Assembly: GCF_022568775.1 (NCBI RefSeq)
Contig: NZ_JAKZHW010000001.1
Location: 248,001-312,000 of the forward strand
DNA from: Sphingomonas telluris
Lineage (GTDB): Bacteria; Pseudomonadota; Alphaproteobacteria; Sphingomonadales; Sphingomonadaceae
Length of the DNA: 64,000 nt
Reading direction: 5' to 3'
In this document: piece after piece, positions 25,711 to 56,481 of the stretch
Layout: each line of letters begins with the position of its first letter
How positions within the stretch are numbered: position 1 is the first letter of the stretch
Notes under the pieces: generated by a model
Databases searched by the model: none
What the model saw: only the letters and a program-made list of their open reading frames with translations
What the model was told of the DNA's origin: nothing
Position numbers and translations under genes: made by a program

Positions 25711-25763
25711 CCATTCCATTGCCCGGTTTCTGAGCTTGTTCTAACCCGTACGCGGGGGTGGGG

Positions 25764-27158
25764 ATGGCGAACAGCCGCGCGGTCGGTTTCCGGTCAGTCT
25801 TGTTGGGCGGGGAGGGTCTCGTTGGCGCCGCGATCCTCGCGGTGTTCCTTTACCTTGCCCTGACCCAGTCCATCCTCAATGACGGCGACACGAGCTGGCA
25901 CCTCGCCACCGGCAAGCTGATCCTCGCCACCCGAGCCATTCCGCACGTCGATCCCTTCTCCTTCACCTTCGCCGGACACGCCTGGACCGCGCACGAGTGG
26001 CTCGCCGAGGTTCTCATGGCGTTGGCGTTCGGCGCCGGCGCTTGGGCGGGCCTGACGGCGCTCTTCGCAGCCGTCATTGCGATCACCCTGACGCTCTTGG
26101 CTCGCCAGCTCCTGCGCTGGCTACCGCTTCGATACGTACTGCTCGGACTTGCCGGGATCGCGGCCGTATTGGCGCCTTTCATGCTCGCGCGGCCCCACGT
26201 CCTGACCTGGCCAATTCTGGTGCTGTGGGTCTCAGCCCTCATTCGCGCCCGGGAGCGGCATCGTGCTCCGCCGCTCGCCTGGGCGGGTTTGATGATCGTC
26301 TGGGCGAACCTTCATGCGAGCTACCTGATGGGGCTCGCCATCGCCGCGGCCTTTGCGCTGGAGGCGCTGCTGCAGGAGCGGGACCGCCGACGGGTGATCA
26401 TCGAATGGGGAGCGTTCGGGCTGCTTTCGGCCGCGTTGGCCTTCGTGACCCCGCACGGCATCCAGGGCTTCCTCTATCCCCTGCAAGTAAGCGGTATGAA
26501 GACATTGCCGCTCATTCAGGAGTGGCGTTCAAGTCGCCTCCCCGACGATCTTCTGTTCTTCATTCTGCTGGCCGCGGCGGCCGTCGCCGCAATCCTGCGG
26601 GGCCGAGAGCTCGGACTAGTCCGATTGGTCCTTCTCGCCGGACTGGCGCTGATGGCCGTCCTTCACTCGCGCCATCAGCCGCTCTTCGTTCTGGTGTCCG
26701 CTTTGGTCCTGCCGCCAACCGAACGCCGCGCAGAAAGCGGGGGCAAGGCGCTCATCTGGCTAGTGCCGGTCATCGCCGCAGCAGCGCTCATCCGATCCGC
26801 CTTTCCGGAGACGCGAGCCGATAGCGGAACCTATCCAGCGAGGGCCCTCGCCGCCATTCCGCCGGAACTCCGCACCCAGCCGGTCTTCAACAGTTACAGC
26901 TTCGGCGGCCCGCTCATTCTCAACGGCATCCGCCCCTACATCGATGGTCGGGCGGACATGTACGGAGACGCTTTCACCGCCGACCACAATGCCATGGTCC
27001 TCGGCGACGGCGCAGCATTCGAGCGCGCGGTGCAGCGCTTCGGTGTCCACTGGACCATGCTACAGCCCGGATCGCCACTGATCCCCGTCCTGGACCACGA
27101 CCCGCGCTGGAAGCGAGTCTACGCCGACCGCTGGGCGGTCATTCACGTGAGAACATAG
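25764..27158 (+). CDS. Polytopic membrane protein, GT-C-like
   Basis: A 464-residue integral membrane protein with about ten hydrophobic segments and a soluble C-terminal part of roughly 110 residues. The first periplasmic loop contains NDGDTSWHLATGKLI with acidic residues, followed by DPFSFTFAGHAWTAHEWLAE; acidic first-loop motifs are the hallmark of GT-C glycosyltransferases that use lipid-linked sugars, and the C-terminal part has PYIDGRADMYGD. The donor and acceptor are unknown. The ATG at 25764 is used; a GTG at 25758 adds two residues. The gene ends 4 nt before a bidirectional terminator shared with rplL. Confidence 0.65.
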   Translation: MANSRAVGFRSVLLGGEGLVGAAILAVFLYLALTQSILNDGDTSWHLATGKLILATRAIPHVDPFSFTFAGHAWTAHEWLAEVLMALAFGAGAWAGLTALFAAVIAITLTLLARQLLRWLPLRYVLLGLAGIAAVLAPFMLARPHVLTWPILVLWVSALIRARERHRAPPLAWAGLMIVWANLHASYLMGLAIAAAFALEALLQERDRRRVIIEWGAFGLLSAALAFVTPHGIQGFLYPLQVSGMKTLPLIQEWRSSRLPDDLLFFILLAAAAVAAILRGRELGLVRLVLLAGLALMAVLHSRHQPLFVLVSALVLPPTERRAESGGKALIWLVPVIAAAALIRSAFPETRADSGTYPARALAAIPPELRTQPVFNSYSFGGPLILNGIRPYIDGRADMYGDAFTADHNAMVLGDGAAFERAVQRFGVHWTMLQPGSPLIPVLDHDPRWKRVYADRWAVIHVRT

Positions 27159-28550: not shown

Positions 28551-29696
28551 ATGCGCGCATCATGGGTGCTGTACGCGTCGGCTGCTGCCATTCTTGGAGT
28601 TGCCAGTCCGGCAAGCGGGCAAGGACCGGACGCTCAATCGGACGCGACTCTCGCGAAGATCAGCAACCAGTATATCTGCACGTTCGACCGCTCCATGCCT
28701 GGGGCGAGCGTGCGCAACGAAGCCAATAAGGCGGCGGGCCCGGTGCTCGGGCAGGTGCTCCACACCTACGAACATTCGATCAAGGGCTTCGCAGTCCGGG
28801 CCGCAGCGCTCTCTAACGGACGCAGCCCGATCGCCGAGATGCGGGCGAAGAACCCGCGGATCACCGGATGCGAAGAAGACCAGGTGATGCGGGCGGTCGT
28901 CGCGAAGCCTTCGGGCAAGCCTGGAGGCGGCGGCGGGTCGGAACAGACACCTTACGGCGTCACGATGGTCAGGGGCGGCACGACGGACCAGTCGAACTCC
29001 GGCAAGACGGCATGGGTCATCGATACCGGCATCGACTTTACCCACCCCGATCTCAACGTCGATGTCGCGCGCAGCGTCAGCTTCGTCGGCGGAACGGGTA
29101 GCGACCGGAACGGCCATGGCACACACGTGTCGGGAACGATCGGCGCGAAGAAGGACGGCAAGGGCGTCGTCGGCGTGGCTCCGGGCGTGAAGCTCGTGGC
29201 AGTCCAGGTTCTCGGCGCGAGCGGCTCGGGATCGACCTCGGGCGTGATTGCCGGCATCGATTATGTCGCCGACCACGGCATCGCCGGCGACGTGGCGAAT
29301 ATGAGCCTGGGCGGCGGCTATTCGCAGGCGCTGAACGACGCGGTCGTCGCAGCGTCCAGCAAGGTGAAGTTCGCGCTCGCAGCCGGCAATGAAGGCGACA
29401 ACGCCAACAACCATAGCCCGGCCAGCGCGAACGGACCGAACATCTATACGGTCGCGGCGGTGGACTCCGCGAAGACGCTCGCGTCCTGGTCGAACTACGG
29501 CAAGCCGCCGGTCGATTACGCCGACCCGGGCGTAAGCATCTATTCGACCTACAAGGGCGGTGGATACGCGACCTTGTCTGGCACCTCGATGGCCACGCCG
29601 CACATGGCTGGTGTGCTTCTACTGGGTAACGTGTCGAACTGCGGCACCTCGTCCGCAGCCCCCGATGGATCGACCTACTCCATCGGTTGCCACTGA
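28551..29696 (+). CDS. Secreted subtilisin-like serine protease (S8)
   Basis: A 381-residue exported serine endopeptidase. A signal peptide (about residues 1-23) and an inhibitor-like propeptide (about 30-130, ending in a Gly-rich linker) precede the S8 domain. The catalytic triad is Asp158 in VIDTGIDFTHPDL, His189 in NGHGTHVSG and Ser347 in SGTSMATPHMAG; the oxyanion Asn281 lies in AAGNEG. The domain is compact and ends soon after the Ser helix with a short Cys-containing tail (NCGTSS...IGC). It stands alone, ending in a strong terminator, and inserts between the rplJ leader and the arabinose-donor genes. Likely extracellular or periplasmic proteolysis. Confidence 0.92.
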   Translation: MRASWVLYASAAAILGVASPASGQGPDAQSDATLAKISNQYICTFDRSMPGASVRNEANKAAGPVLGQVLHTYEHSIKGFAVRAAALSNGRSPIAEMRAKNPRITGCEEDQVMRAVVAKPSGKPGGGGGSEQTPYGVTMVRGGTTDQSNSGKTAWVIDTGIDFTHPDLNVDVARSVSFVGGTGSDRNGHGTHVSGTIGAKKDGKGVVGVAPGVKLVAVQVLGASGSGSTSGVIAGIDYVADHGIAGDVANMSLGGGYSQALNDAVVAASSKVKFALAAGNEGDNANNHSPASANGPNIYTVAAVDSAKTLASWSNYGKPPVDYADPGVSIYSTYKGGGYATLSGTSMATPHMAGVLLLGNVSNCGTSSAAPDGSTYSIGCH

Positions 29697-29697: not shown

Positions 29698-29741
29698 CGA
29701 AAGCTGCGCGCCGTTGGGGCGGCGCGCAGCTTTCGCTTTTT
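29698..29741 (+). terminator. Strong intrinsic terminator after subtilisin gene
   Basis: Perfect 15-bp stem CGAAAGCTGCGCGCC (29698-29712) with GGCGCGCAGCTTTCG (29721-29735), 8-nt loop GTTGGGGC, followed by CTTTTT at 29736-29741. It isolates the protease gene from the downstream UbiA/DprE genes. Confidence 0.92.
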
Positions 29742-29790: not shown

Positions 29791-30705
29791 GTGTTGGACG
29801 TGGGGCGGGAACTAAGCACGCCGAGAGCAGGGCTCAAAACTTGGAGCCGAGCGCTTCGCGTTCACCAATGGTCGAAGAACCTGCTGGTCTTCGTACCGGC
29901 CCTCCTGTCGATCCCCTTGCTCACGACATTCCAGGCGCTGAACACCCTAATGGCGTTCGTGGCGCTCTGCGCGGTCGCTTCGGCGACCTATGTCGTGAAC
30001 GACGTCGCGGATATGCCTCACGATCGCGAGCATCCATCGAAGAAATCGCGGCCATTCGCGAGCGGCGCTATCTCCGTAGTGCACGGCGCGATCGTCGCTG
30101 CGCTGCTCGCCTCGCTTGCGACCGCGCTCGCGCTTGCGCTGCCCGTGCAATGCGCGCTGACGCTGCTGGTCTATGCGGCTGTGTCGCTTGCTTATTCGTT
30201 CCAGCTGAAGCGGGTGCCACTCCTCGACGTCATCTGTCTCGGCTTCCTCTTCACGGTGCGGATCGCGGTGGGCGCCTCCCTGCTTCCGAACAGCTCACCC
30301 TATTGGCTCTACGCCTTCTCCATGTTCTTCTTCACGAGCCTGGCCTTCGTGAAGCGCTATACGGAGCTGGCGCAGGCGGTTCAGAGCGAGCGCGCATCGC
30401 TTCCCGGACGAAGCTATCAGTCGGAGGACCTGCCTCTGGTTCTCGCGGCCGGGCTCGGTACGGCCCTCTGCTCGATCGTCGTTTTCCTGATCTACCTCGG
30501 CGCGCAGCATTTCGACGGGAACTTGTTCCGCAATCCCGGCTGGCTCGGCCTGTCGGTGGCGGCGCTCGCCTACTGGATCCTGCGCGTGTGGCTGCTGGCG
30601 CTTAGGGGCCAGATGCATGATGATCCGGTCGTCTTCGCCCTGAAGGACCGCGCGTCCTACGCTCTGGGCGTCCTGGTCGGAGTGTCATTGTTCCTCGCAT
30701 GGTAA
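29791..30705 (+). CDS. UbiA-family prenyltransferase, decaprenyl-phosphate phosphoribosyltransferase-like
   Basis: Likely transfers 5-phosphoribose from PRPP to a polyprenyl phosphate, the first committed step of the polyprenylphosphoryl-D-arabinofuranose donor. The 304-residue protein has about eight to nine membrane segments. It carries the UbiA Asp-rich motif NDVADMPHDREHPSKKSRP at residues 70-88; the HPxKxxRPxAxG continuation is characteristic of the phosphoribosyl branch. The GTG at 29791 has GGGGGA 7 nt upstream. The specific assignment, rather than a quinone prenyltransferase, rests on its neighbours: it overlaps a DprE1-like gene by 7 nt and a DprE2-like gene follows. No dedicated phosphatase for the phosphoribosyl lipid was seen. 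Confidence 0.8.
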   Translation: MLDVGRELSTPRAGLKTWSRALRVHQWSKNLLVFVPALLSIPLLTTFQALNTLMAFVALCAVASATYVVNDVADMPHDREHPSKKSRPFASGAISVVHGAIVAALLASLATALALALPVQCALTLLVYAAVSLAYSFQLKRVPLLDVICLGFLFTVRIAVGASLLPNSSPYWLYAFSMFFFTSLAFVKRYTELAQAVQSERASLPGRSYQSEDLPLVLAAGLGTALCSIVVFLIYLGAQHFDGNLFRNPGWLGLSVAALAYWILRVWLLALRGQMHDDPVVFALKDRASYALGVLVGVSLFLAW

Positions 30706-32042
30706 TCGCTCGTCGCGCAGAACAGGTGCTCTCCTGGGGGCGGTGCCACCGCTTCGATCATGTCCGGCTGATCCCCGGCACCATCGACGAGGCGCGAGAA
30801 GCAGTGCGCGGGGAAGGGCCCGTGCTGCCGTTCGGGCTCGGCCGGTCGTACGGAGACTCCTGCCTCAACGACAATGCGGTGCTCATCGACACGCAACGCC
30901 TCGACCATTTCGTGAGCTTCGATGAGGCGAAGGGCGAGATCGTTTGCGAGGCGGGGGTGTCGCTCGATGCGATCCTCGCCCTGCTTGCCACGAAGCCTCA
31001 GACCGATGGCTATTGGTTCCTGCCGGTCGTGCCGGGCACAAAGTTCGTGACCGTCGGCGGAGCCATCGCCAACGACGTCCACGGTAAGAACCATGAGGTT
31101 GAGGGCACCTTCGGCCGCCACGTGAACTGGTTCGACCTCGCCCGTTCGGACGGGCAGCTTCTTCGCTGCTCGCCTGAAGAGAATGCGGAGCTGTTCGCAG
31201 CTACCATTGGCGGACTGGGGCTGACCGGTCTGGTCACGCGCGCGTCAATCCGCTTGATGAAGGTCCCCAGCCTGATGCTCGAGGTGGAGGACATCCGCAT
31301 TCGCAACCTCGACCATTATTTCGAGGTTGCCGAGGAGAGCCGTAGTGGCTGGACTCATCACGCCGCCTGGGTCGATGTGCTCGCCGAGGGCAAAGCAGCA
31401 GGGCGCGGCATCTACACGCGCTCGCGCTTCACAACGTGCGAGAACTCAAAGGAGGCGAAGTCCGGCGGCCCGCGCGTGCCGGTCGAAGCGCCGTCCTGGG
31501 CGATCAGCCATCCGACCATCAAGCTGTTCAACGCCGTCTACGGACGCAAGCTGTTCGGCGAGATGCGCAGAACGGAATGCACGCCTTACGGCCCCGTGTT
31601 CTTTCCCCTCGATGGCGTCAGCGATTGGAACAAGATGTACGGGCGCGGCGGCTTCTATCAGTACCAATGCGTCGTTCCGAAGGATCTTGCCCGCGAATCC
31701 ACGGCTGCATTGCTGCCAACAATCGCGGAGGACAGGCAGGGCTCCTTCCTCACGGTCCTGAAGGAATTCGGAGACATCACCAGCCCGGGCATGCTGTCCT
31801 TTCCGATGCCCGGCACGACGCTTGCGGTCGACTTTCCCAATCGCGGCGAGCGGACGCTGGAGCTGCTCGACAGGCTCGACGCCATTACGCTGGACGCGGG
31901 CGGTCGCGTCTATGCGGCGAAGGACGGCCGGGCATCAGCCGAAATGCTCGTGCAGGGCTTTCCGAAACTGGAAACCTTTCGGCGCTACGTGGACCCGGCC
32001 TTTTCATCGACTTTCTGGAGACGCAGCGCTGGCACGCGATAG
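30699..32042 (+). CDS. dprE1: FAD-binding oxidoreductase, DprE1-like
   Basis: Predicted to oxidise the 2'-OH of polyprenylphosphoryl-ribose to the 2'-keto form. The 447-residue protein has a PCMH FAD-binding domain with LPFGLGRSYGDS at residues 43-54, VGGAIANDVHGKNHE (His128) and GTFGRHVNWFDL. The substrate domain contains FPMPGTTLAVDFP and YAAKDGRAS. Aligned to mycobacterial DprE1, the benzothiazinone-reactive Cys387 corresponds to Ala377 here. The active-site Lys418 corresponds to Lys408, with the spacing of 31 residues preserved. It overlaps the UbiA-like gene by 7 nt and is followed directly by the DprE2-like reductase, so the three are almost certainly one operon. Confidence 0.87.
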   Translation: MVIARRAEQVLSWGRCHRFDHVRLIPGTIDEAREAVRGEGPVLPFGLGRSYGDSCLNDNAVLIDTQRLDHFVSFDEAKGEIVCEAGVSLDAILALLATKPQTDGYWFLPVVPGTKFVTVGGAIANDVHGKNHEVEGTFGRHVNWFDLARSDGQLLRCSPEENAELFAATIGGLGLTGLVTRASIRLMKVPSLMLEVEDIRIRNLDHYFEVAEESRSGWTHHAAWVDVLAEGKAAGRGIYTRSRFTTCENSKEAKSGGPRVPVEAPSWAISHPTIKLFNAVYGRKLFGEMRRTECTPYGPVFFPLDGVSDWNKMYGRGGFYQYQCVVPKDLARESTAALLPTIAEDRQGSFLTVLKEFGDITSPGMLSFPMPGTTLAVDFPNRGERTLELLDRLDAITLDAGGRVYAAKDGRASAEMLVQGFPKLETFRRYVDPAFSSTFWRRSAGTR

Positions 32043-32772
32043 TTCTTCGGCGCTTAGCGTCGCGATATTTGGTGCAACCTCCGCCATCGCCGAGCAGGTG
32101 GCGCGGCTGTACGCAGCGAAAGGCGCGAGGATCTTCCTCGCCGGGCGTCAGCGGGAGCGGTTGGATACGATCGCGCAGGACCTCCAGGTTCGGGGAGCGT
32201 CCGCCGTTTCGACCTACGGCGTCGACTTCGACGATGTCGCGGCCTTCGGCCCGATGGTGGAGGCCTGCGGCTCTCCCGACCGGACTCTCATCGCTTACGG
32301 CACGCTGCCCGACCAGCAGGGCGCGGAGGGCAGCGCAGACCTCACCGCCAAAGCGCTGCTCACGAACTTTACCAGCCCGGCCGTCCTCCTGAACCTGCTG
32401 GCGGACCGTCTTCACTCCGGCGCTGCGGTCGCAGTAATCACCTCCGTCGCAGGCGAGCGCGGGCGGCAGAGCAATTACGTCTATGGCGCGGCTAAGGGCG
32501 GGCTCAGCCGCTTCCTCGAGGGCCTTCGCCACCGTCTCGCGCCCAAAGGCATTCGCGTGATCGATGTCCGCCCGGGCTTCGTCGATACGCCGATGACCGA
32601 CGGCATGGACAAGAAGGGGCCTTTGTGGGCCAAGCCCGAGCGCGTCGCGCGCGACATCGAGAAGGCGCTCGAGCGCCGCGACGGGCCGATCCACACCCCG
32701 TGGTTCTGGTGGGGTATCATGGCGATCATCACGCGCGTTCCCGCCCGCATCTTCCACAAGACAAAGCTCTAG
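32029..32772 (+). CDS. dprE2: Short-chain dehydrogenase, DprE2-like
   Basis: Predicted NAD(P)H-dependent reductase of the 2'-keto intermediate, completing epimerisation of ribose to arabinose on the lipid carrier. The Rossmann motif VAIFGATSAIAEQVA, catalytic Ser in VITSVAGERG, YVYGAAKGG (Tyr-x-x-x-Lys) and DVRPGFVDTPMT are present; the C-terminus is hydrophobic and basic as in DprE2. About 247 residues. The start is unusual: no ATG, GTG or TTG lies near the domain start. A CTG at 32029 sits 8 nt after GGAG (32017-32020) and overlaps the DprE1 gene by 14 nt; it is adopted here. The next conventional in-frame start is far upstream inside the DprE1 gene. Confidence 0.85.
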   Translation: MARDSSSALSVAIFGATSAIAEQVARLYAAKGARIFLAGRQRERLDTIAQDLQVRGASAVSTYGVDFDDVAAFGPMVEACGSPDRTLIAYGTLPDQQGAEGSADLTAKALLTNFTSPAVLLNLLADRLHSGAAVAVITSVAGERGRQSNYVYGAAKGGLSRFLEGLRHRLAPKGIRVIDVRPGFVDTPMTDGMDKKGPLWAKPERVARDIEKALERRDGPIHTPWFWWGIMAIITRVPARIFHKTKL

Positions 32773-32833
32773 CGGGGGAGGGCGCGCAATCCGCCAGACC
32801 CTCACCCGAACCGAGCTCACGCTTCGCTATGCC

Positions 32834-33205
32834 TTGTTCGCGGGCGTCGCCATCGCCGCGAACCTGGCCGCGCAAGCCTTGGTCTTCGCGGTCTACACAG
32901 GGCCGTTCCCGCTTGCTGCTGCCCTCGCAGTCGGGACGATTGTCGGCCTGGTCGTAAAGTTCGAGCTGGATCGCCGCCTCATTTTCTACGCGCCCCAGCA
33001 GGATGCCGCCGCGACCGGCGCCACCTTCTTCTTCTATGCCTCCACGGGCCTCATCACGACGGCGCTGTTCTGGGGCACGGAGACGCTGGTGCACTTAGCC
33101 TCGGGCGGAGCACCGGGCTCGCAATATGTCGGCGGTTTCATCGGCCTCACGGCGGGCTATGTGCTGAAGTACCAACTGGACAAGCGCTATGTCTTCCGTG
33201 GCTGA
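32834..33205 (+). CDS. GtrA-family membrane protein
   Basis: A small four-helix membrane protein of the GtrA family, thought to flip or assist polyprenyl-phosphate sugars across the inner membrane. At least 123 residues, with helices near 1-22, 26-45, 58-80 and 95-110 and the closing KYQLDKRYVF motif typical of the family. The conservative TTG start at 32834 lacks a ribosome-binding site. The frame is open and protein-like upstream to ATC 32789, 7 nt after GGAGG (32777-32781), encoding IRQTLTRTELTLRYA, so translation may begin there. In mycobacteria a GtrA-type protein (Rv3789) is linked to DprE1/DprE2, matching this order. It overlaps the convergent gene by 19 nt. Confidence 0.78.
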   Translation: MFAGVAIAANLAAQALVFAVYTGPFPLAAALAVGTIVGLVVKFELDRRLIFYAPQQDAAATGATFFFYASTGLITTALFWGTETLVHLASGGAPGSQYVGGFIGLTAGYVLKYQLDKRYVFRG

Positions 33206-34773
33206 GATGTTGCGGTAACCTGGTAGAGGATGCTCTCCGGACTGTCCCAGATCACGCGAAGATCGGACGGGGCGACGAATGTTCCGCGCAGAGGCTTGAT
33301 GAGCCAAACGTATTGGAACGCTCTTCTCGGGAATTGATCGAGGCTCTCCTGCGTCGTTCGCGCTGCCTCGTTGCTCGCGCGTCTCTCATGATTGAGTCGA
33401 GCAGTACAACTTGGCGAGAAGACCAACGCGGAGCTCACGTCTTCGAAGGGCACGGCTTTCCCATATTTAATGCTGAGCAGCTGAGCGCCCGGAAGATCCC
33501 ACTGATCGTTCGAGAATCCAAATCGTCGTGAGATTACGAGCGCGCCCCAGTGCCAATGGCGCGGCAAAGCCCAGGGTTCGTCACATGCAGCGGAAGCCAG
33601 AGTCAGAACAGCTGAACCGGGCCGAACGAGTTGAAGCCCTTGTGACGAGCGGCGCAGCTCGGCATCCGCGATAGAAAAACTGATTGTATTTCCGATCAGA
33701 CGACACGCGATGAACACCAACCCTAAGCTCGCGACCAGAGCCTCCGCCTTTGCGTCCTGTGTGCGGAAACGAATTGCGACTATTGCCACGATGATGACGT
33801 AGGGCACCAAGCGCATGTCCGCATGGGCCGAGCCAAAGAGCTTGTAGGGAAGCGCTACGAAAGTCACCGCGAGCGCGATTGTCGGGATAGTCATTCGCCG
33901 GGAGAATTCCAGCTTTGGGTCGAACATTGCGGCGCTAATCACGACCAGTGCAACAGCGACACTCACCGCATCCCAGACGAGCCAGCGGTCCCTCAGCGCC
34001 GATGCAACGGTCAGAAGTTTCCACGTGAGCAGGTAGGTCGTTGTGTCCCCGGCTACTTCACCGGTCCGCCAGAGGATCATCATCGCAAATGGAAGCGATA
34101 ACGGTAAAGATTGGAGCACGGAGCCGCGCATCGCCGCTGCCCACGAAAGGCCTTCATCGCGTTGCCTGACGACTTCCGCACCGAAGGCCAAGAGTCCGAG
34201 GAAGCCCCAACCGAACACGTGCACGATCCACAAAACGCAGGATATTGGTGCAAAGATGATGGCGCGGAGTCGGAGCTTCCCCAGCTTGCTCAACCGTAGC
34301 CAAAGAGCGAACGCTAAGAATGCTAGTCCGATCGAAAGAGCGAAGTTCGTGAAGCCGTAGTTGAAAGGGAAGCCATAGACGAAGGGTACGGCGAAAAGCG
34401 CCGTCGGAGGCACTCGTCCATGCAGCTCTCTCCCAACTGCGAAGATCCCGAAAACTGTCAGGACCGGGATGAAGGCCACGATAAGCTTCACCGCCAACTC
34501 AAGTCCAAAAATCGGCGCGAGCCCAACGACGAGCAGGTCGATCCCTAAATTGCCGATCAACGTCCAATGGAAATCGTAGTAGCGTTGCAGATCGGCAGAT
34601 GAGTGCAGGTCTAATTCGACGCGATATCGGCCAATGTGACCAGGCAGGTCCACTAGCGGCGCAACTTCGGGCCAAAGCAACGGGACAACGCTGAGCAACG
34701 CCAGCGTAAAAAGGAATGTGGGGCCCTCCCACCAGCGCCCCGTTCCAAATGATGAGACCCCAGCGATCAAACG
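33187..34773 (-). CDS. Polytopic membrane protein, GT-C-like
   Basis: A protein of about 528 residues with some ten to twelve hydrophobic segments and a soluble C-terminal part of about 120 residues. The first loop has PEVAPLVDLPGHIGRYRVELDLH, an acidic/His-containing periplasmic loop of the kind found in GT-C glycosyltransferases; the later FGSAHADMRLVPY may be a second functional loop. No substrate can be assigned. The TTG at 34773 is chosen because GGTGGAG lies 6 nt upstream; a GTG at 34782 is the alternative. It overlaps the upstream gene by 7 nt. Base composition is visibly less GC-rich than in the neighbouring DprE genes. It may use the lipid-linked arabinose made next door (inference). 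Confidence 0.65.
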   Translation of the reverse strand, partial: RLIAGVSSFGTGRWWEGPTFLFTLALLSVVPLLWPEVAPLVDLPGHIGRYRVELDLHSSADLQRYYDFHWTLIGNLGIDLLVVGLAPIFGLELAVKLIVAFIPVLTVFGIFAVGRELHGRVPPTALFAVPFVYGFPFNYGFTNFALSIGLAFLAFALWLRLSKLGKLRLRAIIFAPISCVLWIVHVFGWGFLGLLAFGAEVVRQRDEGLSWAAAMRGSVLQSLPLSLPFAMMILWRTGEVAGDTTTYLLTWKLLTVASALRDRWLVWDAVSVAVALVVISAAMFDPKLEFSRRMTIPTIALAVTFVALPYKLFGSAHADMRLVPYVIIVAIVAIRFRTQDAKAEALVASLGLVFIACRLIGNTISFSIADAELRRSSQGLQLVRPGSAVLTLASAACDEPWALPRHWHWGALVISRRFGFSNDQWDLPGAQLLSIKYGKAVPFEDVSSALVFSPSCTARLNHERRASNEAARTTQESLDQFPRRAFQYVWLIKPLRGTFVAPSDLRVIWDSPESILYQVTATSQPRKT

Positions 34774-35852
34774 CGTCTCCACCCGAGGCTTCGTTTTCCA
34801 TATCGGCCGCGCGTGAATTGGCTCGTGTCTGGTTGCATGACGAAACCATCCACTGCTGCCGCAAGTACCAGCAGAGCCATCGCGAGGAATCGGAATGGGA
34901 ACGCAGGAAGGCCCAGCCAGATGAAGCCGGGCACGAACAGGAACACAAGGATTGCCGAAGCCGACCATCGGCGTTTTGCAATCAGCGCTGGCGCGGCGGG
35001 TGCGAAAATCGCGAACTCGTAACCCATGGCATGAGCCGAGCCGACCAGTCCTGCGGCCGCTGCAAGGACAAATGCCTCAACGAGATTGCCTCGCCGCAGT
35101 GCCCCCGCCGCGATGCCTGTGCCTCCAGCCAAAGCAAACATGCGAACCCATAGCGGGAGGCCGAACGCAATCTCATTGCGTCGGAGCAAAGGATTTCCTT
35201 CGTGTAGGCTGAGGAAACCAGGCAGCGTCCTGATCCACTCCACCCACTGCATTGGACCGAACATTATTGCCGACAACAGTGCCGACGCTGCGACCGTGCC
35301 GATAGCGACCGCAACCAACGTCCATCTGCGATCAATCGACAGCGCCAGTAAGAAAGCGAGCGCGATTTGCGGCTTGAGGCACAGTGCAAATCCCAGAAAG
35401 ATTCCGGCGACCGTTGGACACCGAATGAGCAGGAAGCATCCCAGAAGGGCGGCGCCCTGCAGGACCGAAGTCTGGCCACCCGGAATTGCCCAAAGAACCG
35501 GAGGAGTCAGAAGCAGGAGCGGTGCCCACTTCGATCGTGATGCAAGCGCCATCGCGGCAGCGGAAAGGACGCCCCACAACGTCAGCGCAAATCGCATGGG
35601 CAGCAATGCGAGCCCGCCGAAAATCGGAAGTGCCGTCGGTGGATAAACGAAGGCGACCGGGTATCGTGATTCCCAGTTCAACGCAGTGCGGAGGGATGCC
35701 TGATCATAGGGATTTGCCCGCTGCATCCCCGTCCACATCATCGCGAAGTCGGGCCGATGGGTCGGCAAAGAGGAGATGTACCAGACGAAGCATCCGGCGA
35801 GGAGCGCCGTAAGACAGGCCGTAGCACCTAGAATTACGCGGTCACGGGACAT
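34767..35852 (-). CDS. GT87-family membrane glycosyltransferase-like protein
   Basis: A 361-residue integral membrane protein resembling the GT87/DUF2029 family, whose characterised members are polyprenyl-phosphate-mannose or arabinofuranose-dependent transferases. The first periplasmic loop has RPDFAMMWTGMQRANPYDQ with the conserved acidic residue, followed by AFVYPPTALPIFGGLALLP, GGQTSVLQGAALLGC and LCLKPQIALAF, all in the family order. About ten helices. It overlaps the upstream gene by 19 nt and the downstream one by 7 nt, so the four minus-strand genes here form one tightly packed operon. The acceptor is unknown. Confidence 0.8.
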   Translation of the reverse strand: MSRDRVILGATACLTALLAGCFVWYISSLPTHRPDFAMMWTGMQRANPYDQASLRTALNWESRYPVAFVYPPTALPIFGGLALLPMRFALTLWGVLSAAAMALASRSKWAPLLLLTPPVLWAIPGGQTSVLQGAALLGCFLLIRCPTVAGIFLGFALCLKPQIALAFLLALSIDRRWTLVAVAIGTVAASALLSAIMFGPMQWVEWIRTLPGFLSLHEGNPLLRRNEIAFGLPLWVRMFALAGGTGIAAGALRRGNLVEAFVLAAAAGLVGSAHAMGYEFAIFAPAAPALIAKRRWSASAILVFLFVPGFIWLGLPAFPFRFLAMALLVLAAAVDGFVMQPDTSQFTRGRYGKRSLGWRRV

Positions 35853-37264
35853 TTCGCCTCCTCAGCGATACTCGCCAGCAATTCCGACCGTCGACGCCAC
35901 CTCACCATCACGAGCGACGCTGCAAACGGGGCCAGCCATATGATGCGGCTTTGGTAGCGGTCGTGCACGTCGGACAGTGCTCCGGCCATTGCCGCGTTCG
36001 CGACAAGGCACAGGACGAGCGTCGCGAGCAGGCTCGTCGCGAGCGTGTCGCGCCTGCGAACGGCCAGGAAGAGCAGGGGAAGGAGCAGCAGCAGTCCGAC
36101 AGTTGCGACCGTGCCCGTGACCAGTCGGATCGGAGTTCTGGGCAATCCATCCGTGAGCTGGCGAGAGGAACGCACGGACTCGATCAGGTTCGGCCGCCAG
36201 TCGAACAGCTTGAGGTTCCCGCAATTCTCCGGGCACTCGTCGTCGAGCGCCTGGTAATGAACGAACTGGTCCGCAGTCGCTTTTGTAGCGACCCGCGCAA
36301 ATTCGACCGGCTGCTCCTTGAGGCTGCCGTTCGCCGCCTGGGAAACCATGTCGACCCAGAGCCAGCTGTCCGGCTCACCCTTCCTCTTGTTGATCCGGTC
36401 GTAGAGCGGGGAGGGCTCTTTCCCCCATAGAAGCTCCTGACTGTCTCGCGGAATTTCAGGCCGAATGTCGCAGAGCGGCTTGGGCGCATCGACCCCGCAA
36501 TGGCGATCGAACCAGCGCGGGACGAGGCCGTCTTCATTCAGACGCGCGAAGAGAAAATAGCCGCCGAGAGGCGACGGGCTCCAGCGATTGAAATAGGCGC
36601 CATAGACGGCAGTGTGCGCAGACAGCACGGCGGCGATCGTCAGCGCGGCTGCCATGGCTCTCTTGGCGATCTCCTTGATAGTGGCTCCGCCGACGGCGCA
36701 AACGATCTGGGTTGCAACGACTGCAACGGCAATGAGCCCGACGTGCGTGTAGTGAACGAGCGCCAGCACGGCAGTCGCCAGCCACATCAGCGGGGTGCCC
36801 GGATCGGCGAGATTTCGCGATGCCGCCAGCCAGGCCAGCAGAATGAGCGCGCCGGTGAAGGCATCGGGCATCAACTGCGTCGCGTGCAGCGACAGGCTGG
36901 TGAGGAGGGCGATCGGCGCGATCAAAGCGAAAATCAGCCAACCTCGCGACCGAGGCAAGAGCTTCCTGCAAGCCGCGACGAGAACTGTCGCAATAATTGC
37001 CGCCTGCATGACGATGGCCAGCCATACACCGGGCGGTCCGTCGAGGCTCCGAAGGGCCGGCGCGAGCAGCAACCCGTAAAATCCTGCTCGATCGATCGGC
37101 CAGCTGTCGGCGTAAGCCACGCTCAAGTAGGCGGACGTGTCTGGGAAGACGAAGGGGAAGCGATTGTGCATCGCCGGGAGCAGCAGCACGGCCGTGACCG
37201 CCGCGACGGTCACGACCTGAGGCATCCGGCCCGGTTTCGCGCGAGTGGATACCGCCAATTTCAT
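35834..37264 (-). CDS. Polytopic membrane protein, GT-C-like
   Basis: A 476-residue membrane protein with about ten hydrophobic segments and a large periplasmic loop between roughly residues 225 and 370 rich in Cys, Trp and Asp (FDRHCGVDAPKPLCDIRPE, DDECPENCGNLKLFDWRP). The four Cys in that loop may form disulfides. The first loop carries FPFVFPDTSAYLSVAYADSW with an acidic motif, and SDVHDRYQSRIIWL near the end resembles the closing motif of lipid-linked sugar transferases of the GT-C superfamily. Family not recognised. It overlaps the neighbours by 4 nt (ATGA) and 19 nt. Confidence 0.68.
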   Translation of the reverse strand: MKLAVSTRAKPGRMPQVVTVAAVTAVLLLPAMHNRFPFVFPDTSAYLSVAYADSWPIDRAGFYGLLLAPALRSLDGPPGVWLAIVMQAAIIATVLVAACRKLLPRSRGWLIFALIAPIALLTSLSLHATQLMPDAFTGALILLAWLAASRNLADPGTPLMWLATAVLALVHYTHVGLIAVAVVATQIVCAVGGATIKEIAKRAMAAALTIAAVLSAHTAVYGAYFNRWSPSPLGGYFLFARLNEDGLVPRWFDRHCGVDAPKPLCDIRPEIPRDSQELLWGKEPSPLYDRINKRKGEPDSWLWVDMVSQAANGSLKEQPVEFARVATKATADQFVHYQALDDECPENCGNLKLFDWRPNLIESVRSSRQLTDGLPRTPIRLVTGTVATVGLLLLLPLLFLAVRRRDTLATSLLATLVLCLVANAAMAGALSDVHDRYQSRIIWLAPFAASLVMVRWRRRSELLASIAEEAKCPVTA

Positions 37265-38349
37265 CGCGGCTCACGCGCCCGGCGGTGCTGCTGATCTAGG
37301 CTTGCGATGAGACTGACCATCAAGGCCGGAAGGATGGAAAGGCTGTTGAGAGCAAAAAGGGGCGCGGCAATCAGAAGGCCCTGCAACGTGCCGCTCAGCA
37401 GACCCATCGTCAGCACCGGAGCCAGCGTCGCGAGGTCGTAACGCATGCCGTAGGGCGAGGCGAGAAGGCTGCCGATCACAACAGCAGAGAGGCGAAGCTT
37501 CAGGTCGTCGGTCTTGAACGCGAGCCAGACGGCGCCGGTGCTTGCGATGACTCCGGCAAACTGGAGAGCGACGATTGCCGTCGGAGCCATCCCAAGGACG
37601 TGCCCGGCCATCGAAGGCGTCGCTCCGAGCCTATACAGCCCATGCCATTCGATCGCGTCGCGAAATCTACCCAACGCCGCGACCCATTCGCCCCAGGCGC
37701 TCGGGCCGAGGACAAAGCTGGCAATGACAACGGCGGACAGGCTGCCAAGAAAGAAGCCGAGCGCAGTCCAGTGACGGCCGGATACAAGCGCGACGGGAAC
37801 CAAGAGCACGCTCTGCGGCTTGAGTGCGGCTGCAATGCCGGCGAGTGCCCCGGCAAGCCGCGGGCGCTTTTCGACGAGGCTAAGGCACCAGATCATGAGC
37901 GATGCGACGATCAGCGTGGTCTGGCCCAGGATGAGGACTAGGATCACGTGCGGCGTGCAAAGCGCCAGGGGTGCGGCCCAGCCCGTCGCCACTCGCCTGA
38001 CCGCGCTCCAGAACGCTAACGCGCTTACCGCGAGCCATGACCAATAGGCCGCCCAGAACGGCAGCAGTCCGAACGGGATCAGGAAGAGGAGCGTCGTTGG
38101 CGGGTAGGGGAACGGTCGAGGCCCGCGCGACGGATCGACGGCCCAAGCCTGCTGACCCGTCAGCGCGATCGTGTCGTAGACCTTGGGCGCGTCGTCGAGC
38201 GCCATTCGCGCCGCCGTCCAGAATACGGTGAAATCGGGAAGCACGCTCCACAGCAACAGTCGCGGCATGAGCAGGATCAGGGTCACGGTAAGGCAAAGCG
38301 TTGCCCCGACGATTCCGATCGCCTGATACAAGCGTCTGGATTGCAGCAT
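37261..38349 (-). CDS. GT87-family membrane glycosyltransferase-like protein
   Basis: A 362-residue polytopic protein of the GT87/DUF2029 type, probably the first gene of the four-gene minus-strand operon. Family landmarks in order: LPDFTVFWTAARMALDD (first-loop Asp), PRPFPYPPTTLLFLIPFGLLP, LILGQTTLIVASLMIW, AALKPQSVLLVPVAL and SPYGMRYDLATLAP. It is distinct in sequence from the second GT87 member of the operon, so the two probably act on different acceptors or positions. It starts 113 nt from the divergent DUF2569-like gene. Confidence 0.82.
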   Translation of the reverse strand: MLQSRRLYQAIGIVGATLCLTVTLILLMPRLLLWSVLPDFTVFWTAARMALDDAPKVYDTIALTGQQAWAVDPSRGPRPFPYPPTTLLFLIPFGLLPFWAAYWSWLAVSALAFWSAVRRVATGWAAPLALCTPHVILVLILGQTTLIVASLMIWCLSLVEKRPRLAGALAGIAAALKPQSVLLVPVALVSGRHWTALGFFLGSLSAVVIASFVLGPSAWGEWVAALGRFRDAIEWHGLYRLGATPSMAGHVLGMAPTAIVALQFAGVIASTGAVWLAFKTDDLKLRLSAVVIGSLLASPYGMRYDLATLAPVLTMGLLSGTLQGLLIAAPLFALNSLSILPALMVSLIASLDQQHRRAREPR

Positions 38350-38462: not shown

Positions 38463-39257
38463 ATGCTTAGGCTAGAGGCAGACCGAGTGCTCCGGATCTA
38501 TGAGGGCCGCCTGCGCGCACGGGCGGCAAGCATCCTACTATCGCTCGAGGGCCGCCTCGATCGCATCATGCAGGGCTGGCTGCTTCTTGCGGGCCTCGCC
38601 TGTGCCGCGCGTATCGCCACGAGCCCCATCCGGGGTCCGCTGGATGCCGGCACGATCGGTCCTTACCTGCTTCTGATCGTCGCGCCTTTCGCGTCGATGG
38701 TCCTTGCGCTCCGCTGGTTCGCGGAAGGTGACAGGTTGCCGCAGCCGGCTACACGTCTCGCCCGCATCGGCCGCTGGAATAACCTCGAGCTGAACGCGGC
38801 GAGGCAGCATCCGCTCTACGGTGCGAACGGCATCATGGTTTCGCTGCTCATCGGCATGCTGATCAACGTGCCGGTCCGCGCCGCTGAATATCTAGCGGCA
38901 ATGCCCGCGCTCACGGGCAAGGTCCCCGCCTGGCTGTCGACCCTGAACCTTCTGATGACCATGGACGTGGTCGTCTTCACCAGCCTCTACACTGTCGCTT
39001 TCGTGGCGGCTCTTCGTCGGGTTCCGCTATTCCCGCGGTTGCTGGCCGCGATCTGGATCAGCGATCTCGCCATGCAGATCGTGACCGCCGAGATCGTCGC
39101 CGGCACGCCGGGCCTGCCGACGAAGGTGGCTGGAGCGCTTCACGCCTTGCTGGAAGGCAATGTGAAGAAGGTGCTGATTAGCGCCGCGCTATGGCTGCCG
39201 TACCTGCTGCTCTCGCGGCGGGTGAACGTGACTTATCGGCACCGCGTACCTGCCTGA
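38463..39257 (+). CDS. Membrane protein, DUF2569-like
   Basis: A 264-residue integral membrane protein with about five hydrophobic segments (near 38-55, 66-85, 118-140, 155-185 and 220-248). The C-terminal part ends WLPYLLLSRRVNVTYRHR, matching the end of DUF2569 proteins, where IPY...SKRVKxTF is typical. The function of the family is unknown. The N-terminal 35 residues are basic and probably cytoplasmic. It stands alone, divergent from the GT-C operon and about 400 bp upstream of the pilin gene. Confidence 0.6.
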   Translation: MLRLEADRVLRIYEGRLRARAASILLSLEGRLDRIMQGWLLLAGLACAARIATSPIRGPLDAGTIGPYLLLIVAPFASMVLALRWFAEGDRLPQPATRLARIGRWNNLELNAARQHPLYGANGIMVSLLIGMLINVPVRAAEYLAAMPALTGKVPAWLSTLNLLMTMDVVVFTSLYTVAFVAALRRVPLFPRLLAAIWISDLAMQIVTAEIVAGTPGLPTKVAGALHALLEGNVKKVLISAALWLPYLLLSRRVNVTYRHRVPA

Positions 39258-39653: not shown

Positions 39654-39836
39654 ATGAAGACCTTTATCAACATGCTGCGGGACGAGTCCGGCGCTTCGGC
39701 TGCCGAATACGCGCTCATTCTCGCGATCGTCGGTTCTGCGATTGCACTGGCGGCTATTTTCCTGGGTGGCACGATTTCGACGGCCCTCAACGAAGCAAGC
39801 ACCTGCATCAGCAGCAACGGCAGCACCTGCAGCTAA
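39654..39836 (+). CDS. flp: Flp-type IVb pilin
   Basis: The 60-residue major pilin of the tad pilus. A short leader (MKTFINMLRDESG) precedes the processing site, followed by the hydrophobic ASAAEYALILAIVGSAIALAA, with the conserved Glu-Tyr pair of Flp pilins. The C-terminal part NEASTCISSNGSTCS is rich in Ser/Thr and contains two Cys, unusual in such short pilins; they could form a disulfide loop. The ATG at 39654 is chosen for the correct leader length and AAGGAA upstream; an open frame extends further upstream but lacks pilin features. CpaA (end of this locus) would cleave it. A hairpin separates it from cpaB. Confidence 0.92.
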   Translation: MKTFINMLRDESGASAAEYALILAIVGSAIALAAIFLGGTISTALNEASTCISSNGSTCS

Positions 39837-39967: not shown

Positions 39968-40894
39968 ATGAGACGTCAAACGGTAATTGCACTCGCAGTC
40001 GCCCTGGTTCTGGGCCTGCTGGCCGTCTATCTCGCCAACATCTTCTTGAGCGCCAACGAACGTAAGGCTCAGCAAGCCACGGCCAACATGGTCAAGGTGG
40101 CGGTCGCTGCGGTCCCGCTCGATTACGGCGTCGATATCTCTCCGGATAAGGTGAAGTTTGTCGACTATCCGTCGACCAGCATCCCGGCCGGAAGCTTCAA
40201 CAATTACGCGCAGCTCGCGCCCGAAGGAAAACGACGGGTCGTCCTGCGTCCGATGACGGTCAACGAGCCGATCCTGGCGACCAAGCTCGCCGGTGAAGGC
40301 CTTGGCCCGTCGATCGCCTATCTGTTGCCGGACGGTATGCGGGCAGCCGCGGTCCGGATCAACGACGTCTCGGGCGTCGCCGGCTTCATCCAGCCGAGCG
40401 ACTCTGTGGACGTCCTCATCACACGCAACCAGAGCGCCAACGGCAGTACGCAGGCGACCGACGTTCTGCTTCAGAACATTCGCGTGATCGCGATTGACCA
40501 GAACGCACAGGGTGCGAACGGTCAGCCGGTGCTCGCCAAGACGGCGACGCTGGAAGTGTCGCCGACGGACGCACAGAAGCTCGCGCTCGCCCAGCAGGTC
40601 GGCGCGCTCAGCCTCGTGCTCCGCAAGCCTGGCCAGGAACAGGACAGCGGCCGCGTTGCGACGGTCAGCATGAACGACCTGCGCTATTCCTATTACAGCG
40701 GTGCGCGCGTCACGCCGGCCGCGCAGACGGAGCCCGCGCCGCGTGTCTCTGTTACAACTGCTCCGCGCCGCGCCATCGTGCGGCGTCCAGCGCCAGTCGC
40801 AGCTCCTGCCCAGCCGCGGCCGATCAGCAATAGTGTTGAAGTCGTCCGGGGGACTCAGGGCAGCAACTATGAGGTGGGGGGATATGGCTCGTGA
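39968..40894 (+). CDS. cpaB: Flp pilus assembly protein CpaB
   Basis: A 308-residue periplasmic protein anchored by one N-terminal helix (residues 5-28). An SAF domain follows (roughly 40-110, VAVAAVPLDYGVDISPDKVKFVDYP) and then the RcpC/CpaB domain with GMRAAAVRINDVSGVAGFIQPSDSVDVL. The C-terminal about 60 residues are Pro/Ala/Arg-rich and probably disordered. CpaB/RcpC links the secretin to the inner-membrane complex and may bind peptidoglycan through the SAF domain. It overlaps cpaC by 11 nt. Confidence 0.94.
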   Translation: MRRQTVIALAVALVLGLLAVYLANIFLSANERKAQQATANMVKVAVAAVPLDYGVDISPDKVKFVDYPSTSIPAGSFNNYAQLAPEGKRRVVLRPMTVNEPILATKLAGEGLGPSIAYLLPDGMRAAAVRINDVSGVAGFIQPSDSVDVLITRNQSANGSTQATDVLLQNIRVIAIDQNAQGANGQPVLAKTATLEVSPTDAQKLALAQQVGALSLVLRKPGQEQDSGRVATVSMNDLRYSYYSGARVTPAAQTEPAPRVSVTTAPRRAIVRRPAPVAAPAQPRPISNSVEVVRGTQGSNYEVGGYGS

Positions 40895-42455: not shown

Positions 42456-42729
42456 GCTGATTTGGGTCGCGCCAGTGGCTGTGCTCGTCGCGGGCTGCGC
42501 CGTCGACCCGGTAACCCAGTCCTACGATCCGAGCTTCGGCGAGGCGAACAAGTACAACAACGCGGTCCAGACGATTAATCCGGACCCGGTTTACGCCGCC
42601 GACTCCGCGCAGCCGGGCGACAACGGCGACGTCGGTGCGCATGCGGTGAAGCGCTATCGCACCGATACCGTGAAGGCGATCGAAACGATGGAGACGACTA
42701 GCGGGTCCAGTGGCGGCGGCCCTAAGTGA
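42445..42729 (+). CDS. Small tad-locus lipoprotein (CpaD-position)
   Basis: A 94-residue predicted lipoprotein with signal sequence MFSRLIWVAPVAVLVAGC (lipobox VAGC, Cys18). The mature part has no recognised domain (DPVTQSYDPSFGEANKYNN, then DVGAHAVKRYRTDTVKAIE). It occupies the place where cpaD or tadD-type lipoprotein genes often sit after the secretin gene. It is much shorter than CpaD (usually above 200 residues), so it may be a reduced pilotin-like factor for secretin assembly (inference). The ATG at 42445 gives AAGGAG a 7-nt spacing; an ATG at 42439 lies too close to it. Confidence 0.72.
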   Translation: MFSRLIWVAPVAVLVAGCAVDPVTQSYDPSFGEANKYNNAVQTINPDPVYAADSAQPGDNGDVGAHAVKRYRTDTVKAIETMETTSGSSGGGPK

Positions 42730-42741
42730 GGATAGGGGACG

Positions 42742-44379: not shown

Positions 44380-44912
44380 TACACGCGTCGCGCCTCCTCA
44401 GGAACCGGAGCGGGAATGCAGCCGCCGAGATGGCTCTCGTGATGCCGTTGCTCCTCATCATCATGATGGGCTCGGCCGAGGTCGGGAATTACTTCATGAA
44501 CGAGCACACGCTCGTAAAGGCGGTTCGAGACGGGGCGCGCTATGCAGCTCGCCAGAGCTTTACCAATTACACCGGATGCAGCGGCGCGCCCGGCGGCACG
44601 GTGGTCGCAGATACGCGGAATGTTGTCGTGAACGGTTATCTTTCCGGCGGGACACGGATGACGCCGGGCATCGTGGCGACCGACGTCAATCTCGCCGTCA
44701 GCTGCGTTTCTGCAGCGGGCGGCCAGAACATGCTGGGCATCTACCGCAGCAGGTTTGGGGCCACGTGCAATGGAAGTTCGGCGGGTGGCTGCGCGCAGGT
44801 CGTGACGGTCACCGCCCAACTGACTTATCGCCCGATCCTTGCAAGCTTCGGCTTCAGGGGCGTTGGCGTTCCGCTGAACGCATCGTCTCAAGCTGCGGTA
44901 ACCGGGGCATGA
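44376..44912 (+). CDS. tadE: TadE-like pseudopilin 1
   Basis: A 178-residue TadE-family protein. The N-terminal segment NRSGNAAAEMALVMPLLLIIMMGSAEVGNYF (split here by domain rather than run) has the conserved Glu of the prepilin-like motif and the following Glu typical of TadE. The C-terminal part is periplasmic with four Cys. TadE and TadF are pseudopilins processed by the TadV/CpaA peptidase and needed for pilus formation in Aggregatibacter. ATG 44376 overlaps the tadG stop (ATGA), and its own stop overlaps the next start in the same way. Confidence 0.87.
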   Translation: MIHASRLLRNRSGNAAAEMALVMPLLLIIMMGSAEVGNYFMNEHTLVKAVRDGARYAARQSFTNYTGCSGAPGGTVVADTRNVVVNGYLSGGTRMTPGIVATDVNLAVSCVSAAGGQNMLGIYRSRFGATCNGSSAGGCAQVVTVTAQLTYRPILASFGFRGVGVPLNASSQAAVTGA

Positions 44913-45523: not shown

Positions 45524-45527
45524 GGCA

Positions 45528-46739: not shown

Positions 46740-46742
46740 GAC

Positions 46743-49123: not shown

Positions 49124-49126
49124 TCG

Positions 49127-50101: not shown

Positions 50102-50102
50102 A

Positions 50103-55244: not shown

Positions 55245-55246
55245 GT

Positions 55247-56467: not shown

Positions 56468-56481
56468 GCCGTTTCGATACG

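Follow-up and report, generated by a model that had tools for sequence, protein, structure and literature searches.

Known D-arabinofuranose donor systems

The mycobacterial DPA pathway, which supplies a rare sugar donor, lipid-linked D-arabinose, to the cell wall of these bacteria, comprises Rv3806c, Rv3807c, DprE1, DprE2 and the proposed flippase Rv3789, which is GtrA-like. A cassette of four genes at 29791–33205 of the window (the 64,000-nucleotide stretch of Sphingomonas telluris DNA analysed here) has in common with it a UbiA-type transferase, an FAD oxidase, an SDR reductase and a small membrane protein that is a candidate flippase. It differs in carrying no phosphatase gene, in encoding DprE1 and DprE2 homologues that score under the equivalog cut-offs, and in having Ala at the position of Cys387 in Mycobacterium tuberculosis (Mtb) DprE1; in addition, no mycobacterial wall is expected in a Gram-negative host. 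Passages of PMC11127046 describe Rv3789 as SMR-type.

The pathway itself is already known from Gram-negative bacteria, with versions for Nod factors, Pseudomonas aeruginosa pilin and O antigens, and D-arabinofuranose (D-Araf) donor genes of other Gram-negative bacteria are described in sections of PMC11127046, PMC5080398, PMC11841053 and PMC12369383. The noeCHOP/noeCNHOP system is another D-Araf operon of Alphaproteobacteria that contains relatives of the mycobacterial donor genes; its acceptor is a Nod factor and its arabinosyltransferase is NoeP. In the pilin arabinosylation of P. aeruginosa and P. paraeruginosa (PSPA7_6245–6251 and TfpW), too, a Gram-negative genomic island supplies the D-Araf donor genes. 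That island is RGP80; tfpW is found with pilA, and the pilus is the known acceptor. In our case the pilus is a proposed acceptor, the pilin gene, 6.4 kb away, is of the tad and not the type IVa kind, and GT87-type enzymes accompany the donor genes. Portions of PMC11841053 report that TfpW arabinosylates type IV pilin, in agreement with an earlier, sequence-only reading of this DNA, which had named pilin arabinosylation in some P. aeruginosa strains. Three-component pentofuranose systems (Kelly et al. 2024; parts of PMC11127046) share with our locus a UbiA-type PPPRS, epimerisation, a flippase, a GT-C enzyme and periplasmic action. As described in those parts, the Citrobacter PPPRS has an N-terminal phosphatase domain and is accompanied by a MATE protein and a GT136 enzyme, whereas here the UbiA protein lacks such a domain and a GtrA-type protein is the candidate flippase.

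What is new is the setting of the cassette, within a segment of tad and GT-C genes. To call its product apparently unreported, as the earlier reading did, is defensible at best with regard to this organism and to Tad pili, but not for D-Araf donor genes in Gram-negative bacteria at large; among the open-licence papers listed by literature searches, titles and the beginnings of abstracts yielded no report of Tad pilus arabinosylation.

A probable donor cassette

The first gene (29791–30705, plus strand, GTG start) encodes a UbiA-type polyprenyl-phosphate 5-phosphoribosyltransferase without a HAD domain. The protein matches PRK08238 with 364.8 bits (cut-off 351) over positions 183–479 of the 482-position profile, and its best PDB match is Rv3806c (8j8j, 9e-23), to which the NDxxDxxxD motif aligns as NDVADMPHD. 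A KRYTEL segment supplies the loop-IV R and E, which says little because R and E mutants remained active according to sections of PMC11127046. Assignment as a quinone or heme prenyltransferase was rejected: the corresponding scores are 45.1 and 31.6 bits, and model scores and best solved relative alike place the protein with the phosphoribosyltransferases, not with the quinone and heme enzymes that the earlier reading had named as the alternative. A tree built from 36 selected sequences places the protein among its PRK08238 relatives; on its own it would not decide the class, because the genome's two other UbiA-family proteins (of heme and quinone type, as judged by inspection) have unreliably long branches, of length 10.

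The second gene (30699–32042, plus strand) encodes a homologue of DprE1, a polyprenyl-P-ribose 2′-oxidase. It scores 333.6 bits against NF053785, below the curated cut-off of 500, and its best PDB matches are mycobacterial DprE1 structures (2.3e-63). Residues H128, K355 and K408, invariant in all 18 aligned sequences (its own included), align with the key Mtb residues His132, Lys367 and Lys418. The third gene (about 32029 to 32772, plus strand) encodes a homologue of DprE2, an SDR 2′-keto reductase, with 282.9 bits to PRK07102 (cut-off 267) and 149 bits to the DprE2 equivalog model NF053786 (cut-off 250). Its best PDB match is DprE2 (21gq_C, 8.8e-21), and the SDR YxxxK motif is present as YGAAK, aligned to YGSTK of DprE2. 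As both NCBIfam equivalog cut-offs are missed, the two proteins are treated as homologues and not filed as equivalogs. The fourth gene (32786–33205, plus strand) encodes a GtrA-type membrane protein and candidate flippase (PF04138, 31.1 bits; gtrA_1 model NF037976, 133.8 bits, cut-off 50). The 5′ ends of dprE2 and gtrA are uncertain because ATG, GTG and TTG are absent at the expected starts; for gtrA, the first standard start is TTG at 32834.

The four-gene cassette proposed earlier is thereby confirmed, with family scores far above chance, and Rv3806c, DprE1 and DprE2 are each the best solved relative of their counterparts, with key residues kept. Judged from homology and conserved residues, the UbiA–DprE1–DprE2 set very probably makes polyprenyl-P-D-arabinofuranose.

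Similar gene sets recur in other bacteria. In the best 80 of 584 DprE1 loci found, UbiA lies within 300 bp of DprE1 in 56 and DprE2 adjoins DprE1 in 73. A small GtrA profile gave strong matches in only 2 of these 80 (L088 and L095) and in family genomes G095 and G001, and weak ones in five loci (L047, L051, L073, L076 and L098); the low count may reflect insensitivity of the profile.

A possible phosphatase in trans

A scan with Pfam and NCBIfam-type models found no phosphatase gene or HAD domain in the cassette, as had been noted from the sequence. Elsewhere, 55 of 60 cassette UbiA proteins carry a HAD domain. The rest of the genome does hold candidates: a HAD–UbiA fusion gene (L020:8495–10018), the HAD part of which has a weak Pfam score (19.2 bits), and two PAP2_3 matches unlinked to the cassette, one of them below the cut-off. 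The fusion gene adjoins a GT-C-like gene; a distant gene of the m531 class (see below) adjoins the HAD–UbiA gene at this second locus and in G049. Among five family genomes with both an m531-class and a PRK08238 match, the two are adjacent in only two, one of which is the query's own locus. The phosphatase may thus act in trans, with the fusion protein as the best candidate.

The bare UbiA protein and the doubtful dprE2 and gtrA starts could also mean that a cassette acquired without its own phosphatase stops at a ribofuranosyl lipid, or is inefficient, and the presence of the cassette, as traced by DprE1, in 1 of 71 genus genomes (1 of 53 of good quality) would fit such a history. We regard this as improbable: all four reading frames are open, the key residues are intact, the GC content resembles that of the rest of the window, and databases contain UbiA proteins of 71–82% identity that are similarly bare (304–316 aa).

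Convergent glycosyltransferase genes

Upstream, the cassette is separated from an S8 peptidase gene by a terminator-like stem (29698–29735, plus strand) of 17 pairs, 12 of them G-C, with the tail CTTTTTGCCT. It is the strongest of 12 terminator-like matches and agrees with the terminator proposed earlier, but the total number of matches is not above that in shuffled sequences (9.6, s.d. 3.0).

Downstream, four minus-strand genes converge on the cassette. Two encode GT87 glycosyltransferases by Pfam (PF09594, cut-off 25 bits): GT87b (34767–35852, 64.1 bits) and GT87a (37261–38349, 94.8 bits), both of which group with GT87 proteins of tad segments. The gene nearest the cassette, m531 (33187–34782), overlaps gtrA by 19 bases; its probable start within a 593-aa frame is GTG 34782, as judged from the upstream stop, giving 531 aa. 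It is a GT-C-type membrane glycosyltransferase by predicted fold. The fold model is confident, and its structural matches, with Foldseek TM-scores of at most 0.45, include protein-, aminoarabinose- and arabinosyltransferases. The fold does not tell the sugar. The fourth, m476 (35834–37264), encodes a polytopic membrane protein that is a possible GT-C enzyme; it has no Pfam match, its single-sequence structure model reaches a pLDDT of 44.3, and a relative of 48% identity lies beside tad in G138. The earlier assignment of all four to GT-C/GT87 types thus stands for three and is possible for m476. Queried against PDB sequences, GT87a, GT87b and m531 had no match with an E-value of 1 or less. Relatives of m531 are numerous (3,624 proteins with E ≤ 1e-5) and are common without a known cassette.

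A single frame joining a GT87 and an m531 (P0350) was considered as a domain fusion and rejected; because a frameshift appears to have run two neighbouring genes together at its junction, it is a hint of gene order only. Separately, P0014 (a DprE1) and P0245 (an m531) come from contigs of length 5194 each, from the same source, hinting at one contig; this was not counted as evidence.

Linkage to the tad locus

As the earlier reading had stated, a tad locus lies about 6.4 kb downstream of the cassette. A gene for a DUF2569-like membrane protein (38463–39257, plus strand; PF10754, 25.9 bits, just below the cut-off of 26.5), which each of the 12 compared sister tad loci also has upstream of flp, precedes the flp pilin gene (about 39654 to 39836, plus strand). 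The Flp C-terminal tail is rich in Ser and Thr (10 of 22 residues), the highest share among the 21 pilins listed. The locus continues from cpaB (TIGR03177, 224.4 bits) to a prepilin-peptidase-like frame (39968–52848, plus strand) and is collinear with the tad loci of the two nearest sister species, G152 and G131. CpaB is a homologue of the Tad protein RcpC. RcpC has been implicated in Flp glycosylation (portions of PMC12307814).

The GT87–tad association extends across the genus. Among 72 GT87 matches, 17 lie within 6 kb of cpaB, about 0.6 being expected. Of 39 genomes with both genes, 13 (the query and 12 sisters) have a GT87 gene no more than 6 kb from cpaB, in every case on its upstream side, so that a glycosyltransferase gene is present beside the pilin gene. 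The linked cpaB is always of the type with a frame shorter than 345 aa (13 of 52; longer frames, 0 of 59). The four GT87 proteins from the window and its end that were included in a tree (GT87a, GT87b, GT87c and L015) each group with tad-side GT87 proteins. The recurrence of GT87 genes next to tad loci of the genus makes the link to tad stronger than could be seen from the window.

The cassette lies within an rplA–rplJ segment that also carries tad and the GT-C genes; in G152 and G131 this segment holds tad and GT87 and no cassette. Because sister genomes keep tad-side GT-C enzymes without a cassette, these enzymes are not generally D-Araf-dependent. It is conceivable, if unlikely, that the GT-C island places another sugar on the Tad pilus, as in the sisters if at all, and that the arabinose cassette serves an unrelated acceptor: all 12 sister genomes with a tad-side GT87 lack DprE1, and PAP2_3 genes lie near GT87 in 6 of the 10 sister loci fetched (hand-picked proteins scanned). 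The overlapping convergence of gtrA and m531 argues against this, as does the finding that no fetched sister locus, with frames compared in part, showed relatives of all four convergent genes.

The main rival to a pilus acceptor is another surface glycan: the cassette would feed D-Araf side chains of an exopolysaccharide, an O-antigen-like polymer or a glycosphingolipid, built by glycan genes at 54–64 kb and elsewhere, and tad would be only a neighbour. A second glycan gene cluster is indeed present at 54–64 kb. Beyond tad and rplA, the interval 54152–63910 contains GT87c (54152–55144, minus strand; PF09594, 95.8 bits), which groups with five tad-side GT87 proteins and one non-tad-side GT87, and frames resembling GT-C, acyltransferase, GT4 and GT2 proteins (all but the GT87 proteins named by inspection). 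Moreover, D-Araf side chains of O antigens accompany DprE1/DprE2 homologues (passages of PMC11127046), and cassettes of other bacteria are not linked to tad: only 4 of the best 80 DprE1 loci, covered with flanks that reach 10 kb at most and less in some, have a tad-type match, and each of these is weak (9e-6 to 2e-14). Against this, the cassette is on the tad side of rplA, in the very segment where G152 and G131 carry tad, and tad-side relatives exist for the convergent glycosyltransferase genes. We consider this rival a substantial minority possibility.

A proposed model for D-arabinosylation

Our preferred reading, to which we assign a probability of roughly 45%, is that 29791–33205 is a D-Araf donor module serving the convergent GT-C genes, with the Tad pilus as the favoured acceptor. 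With the order of steps taken from the known pathway, UbiA would join 5-phosphoribose from PRPP to polyprenyl phosphate, and a phosphatase in trans, possibly the HAD–UbiA fusion, would remove the 5-phosphate. DprE1 would then oxidise C2 and DprE2 reduce the product to polyprenyl-P-D-arabinofuranose, which GtrA would carry to the periplasmic face. There, one or more of GT87a, GT87b, m531 and perhaps m476 would transfer D-Araf to the acceptor, possibly the Tad (Flp) pilus of the adjacent locus.

The pilus is favoured because GT-C enzymes of these types are found with tad loci across the genus; on this linkage it is the leading candidate acceptor, at somewhat less than even odds. D-Arabinose on pili or on another surface glycan is possible because the donor genes stand among sugar-transfer genes beside an adhesive pilus locus. 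Of the sequence-only reading, the D-Araf donor is thus well supported, whereas the pilin or surface-glycan product remains plausible only, strengthened by the genus-wide GT87–tad linkage but tempered by sisters that keep GT-C genes beside tad without the cassette.

More tentatively, Tad pili of the genus may be glycosylated periplasmically by tad-linked GT87/GT-C enzymes, and an acquired D-Araf module may have switched the pilus sugar in one species, with donor modules interchangeable and the GT-C platform conserved. Should another glycan be the acceptor, the locus would add one more D-Araf surface structure made by a known pathway. If it is the pilus, the locus would make Tad pilus glycosylation, and the donor sugar used by Gram-negative GT87 enzymes, accessible to genetic testing, and would illustrate the acquisition of a donor module by a genome whose glycosyltransferases were already in place.

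Organization and coding content of the cassette

The cassette comprises four plus-strand genes at 29791-33205, in agreement with the sequence-only reading: UbiA (29791-30705), DprE1 (30699-32042), which overlaps UbiA by 7 bases, DprE2, whose frame overlaps the end of DprE1, and GtrA, which ends at 33205. The minus-strand gene m531 (33187-34782), encoding a protein of GT-C type by predicted fold, ends at 33187; the two gene groups are therefore convergent and share 19 bases. Between the cassette and the S8 peptidase gene upstream of it lies a terminator-like stem of 17 pairs. For dprE2 and gtrA, neither ATG, GTG nor TTG is found at the onset of homology, leaving their starts uncertain. The GC content of the cassette is like that of the window, and that of m531 is lower (57.5%).

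The best solved relatives of the cassette DprE1 are mycobacterial DprE1 proteins, and its profile score is 333.6 bits (equivalog cut-off 500, not reached). Residues H128, K355 and K408 align to Mtb His132, Lys367 and Lys418, key residues of the enzyme, and are invariant among the 18 sequences aligned. Ala376, equally invariant in that alignment, occupies the position of Mtb Cys387, the benzothiazinone target; covalent attack by benzothiazinones would thus not be expected from the alignment. DprE2 scores 282.9 bits against PRK07102 (cut-off 267) and 149 bits against the DprE2 equivalog, under its cut-off of 250; its best solved relative is Mtb DprE2. GtrA exceeds both the Pfam and the NCBIfam gtrA_1 cut-offs.

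The UbiA-type protein and the missing phosphatase domain

Against PRK08238, UbiA reaches 364.8 bits, over the cut-off of 351; it scores 128.5 bits against the decaprenyl-phosphate phosphoribosyltransferase model (below that model's cut-off of 207), and 45.1 and 31.6 bits against quinone and heme models, respectively. Rv3806c is its best solved relative; the two align at the NDxxDxxxD motif and at R and E of loop IV. In one study (PMC11127046), replacing residues of the first motif by alanine abolished activity in vitro, with some in vivo activity left in one mutant, and changes to the loop-IV R and E did not abolish activity.

The PRK08238 match is restricted to profile positions 183-479 of 482, showing that the N-terminal part is missing, and no HAD domain was found in the window's UbiA. 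This bare form differs from Citrobacter UbiA, to which the phosphatase is described as an N-terminal fusion, mycobacteria having a separate enzyme (PMC11127046). For comparison, we kept 80 loci on named contigs from 584 DprE1 loci found. Among these best 80 of 584, UbiA exceeds 150 bits in 60 and is no more than 300 bp away from DprE1 in 56; a one-sequence HAD query finds a fusion in 55 of the 60. The nearest UbiA homologues, bare (301-316 aa, some possibly truncated gene calls) and fused (about 465-493 aa), are intermixed in the tree. Elsewhere in its own genome, S. telluris encodes a 507-aa HAD–UbiA fusion (L020:8495-10018) with a DxDGT motif and a weak Pfam HAD match (19.2 bits, under cut-off), as well as two unlinked PAP2_3 matches, one below cut-off. 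We infer that phosphatase activity may be supplied in trans.

The fusion gene, with a GT-C-like gene immediately upstream, belongs to a second pentofuranosyl-lipid-like unit (L020:6877-10018; C1, about 1182.9-1186.0 kb), in which no DprE1 match was found.

Genomic setting and rarity

G152 and G131, the species nearest by rplJ (96%), have tad at this site too, between rplJ and rplA, with GT87 genes and one DUF2569-like gene before flp. This synteny places the cassette inside a tad-holding segment of about 24.7 kb (28168-52860). The synteny comparison suggested by the sequence-only reading thus recovers tad and GT87 at the site in both relatives and not the cassette: tblastn at 1e-8 found none of UbiA, DprE1, DprE2, GtrA, m531 or m476 (35834-37264, minus strand; a possible GT-C membrane protein) in either segment. 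A relative (65-69%) of the S8 peptidase gene (subtilisin-like by inspection; 28551-29696), which adjoins the cassette, occurs in the G131 segment; none was found in G152.

The rplA–rplJ ribosomal gene order is usually compact. Here tad and the GT-C genes interrupt it (27655-53559), as in G152 and G131; in the six other sister genomes compared, rplJ–rplA spacing is 1.7 to 8.5 kb with no tad between (rplA was located through the frame opposite and named by inspection). A 466-aa GT-C-like membrane protein, identified by inspection, is encoded between rpoB and rplL (25758-27158); its relatives are tad-side in G152, G131 and G120 (about 41-44%) and rplL-side in G121 (49%).

DprE1 (E 1e-20 or better) occurs in 5 of 119 family genomes and, within the genus, in S. 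telluris only (1 of 71 genomes, 18 of them below the quality mark). PRK08238 matches are found in 11 of 118 family genomes; within the genus they occur in 2 of 71, S. telluris and G166. DprE1 homologues, all less than 60% identical, are present in 63 of 72,556 plasmid records (34 of them Rhizobium), indicating that such genes can travel.

Linkage of GT87 genes to tad across the genus

Of the 71 genus genomes, 67 have CpaB, 41 have GT87 and 39 have both; in 13 of these 39 a GT87 gene lies within 6 kb of cpaB, upstream every time. The cpaB neighbours are all of the type with frames under 345 aa (13 of 52 matches versus 0 of 59 longer ones, fragments included). Overall, with fragments counted, 17 of the 72 GT87 matches fall inside this 6-kb distance from cpaB, compared with about 0.63 expected at random in a 2.5-Mb genome; this count is not a formal test, because the 6-kb distance and the CpaB size split were picked after the data were seen and the species share ancestry. 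The linkage persists where tad and rplJ are on separate contigs (for example, G138 and G156).

A tree was built from 27 GT87s. It covers three window genes, two further copies of the same genome (one of them at the window end), the tad-side genes and the ten best-scoring other loci; the short L176 and L190 fragments were left out. GT87a (37261-38349) and GT87b (34767-35852), both on the minus strand, group with G152, G139 and G130 (97/99), the G152 gene lying 6.1 kb from cpaB. GT87c (54152-55144, minus strand) groups with five tad-side GT87s and one that is not (95/93), and the window-end copy with G120, G127 and G128 (100/100). One of the two tad-side GT87s of G174 clusters with genes that are not tad-side. 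Relatives of m531 (49%) and m476 (48%) adjoin tad in G156 and G138, respectively. PAP2_3 genes lie near tad-side GT87 in 6 of 10 sister loci without DprE1 (L192, L193, L194, L196, L197 and L198; seven proteins among the selected frames scanned). A DUF2569-like membrane gene (38463-39257 in the window) precedes flp by no more than about 2 kb in each of the 12 sister tad loci compared (L176, L178 and L189-L198).

The pilus as a candidate acceptor

Of the 22 tail residues of Flp, the pilin encoded at 39654-39836 (+) ahead of tad (39968-52848, +), 10 are Ser/Thr; this is the top share among the 21 pilins listed, close to the next one (8 of 21 residues), and is only suggestive. Counting against a pilus acceptor is a separate glycan cluster at 54152-63910, in which GT87c is followed by GT-C-like, acyltransferase-like, GT4-like, methyltransferase-like, GT2-like and GT-C-like frames (apart from the GT87s, these assignments were made by inspection). 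Because sisters have tad-side GT-C genes without the cassette, these enzymes do not generally use D-Araf. Tad-type matches, all weak, occur in 4 of 80 other DprE1 loci (best 80 of 584), so the cassette is no accessory of tad elsewhere.

In Gram-negative bacteria, D-Araf donor genes have been described for Nod factors (noeCHOP and noeCNHOP; PMC5080398), for pilin arabinosylation by TfpW with PSPA7_6245-6251 (PMC11841053, PMC12369383) and for O antigens, whose systems include homologues of DprE1/E2 (PMC11127046). Modified Tad pilins are known from other bacteria: RcpC is implicated in glycosylation of Flp (PMC12307814), and Flp1 is reported to carry phosphorylcholine (PMC6182317). We found no report of arabinosylated Tad pili among the open-licence papers that our searches listed. 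The D-Araf donor module is thus itself of a type already known in Gram-negative bacteria, and what would be new, if the acceptor is the pilus, is its placement on a tad-linked GT-C set.
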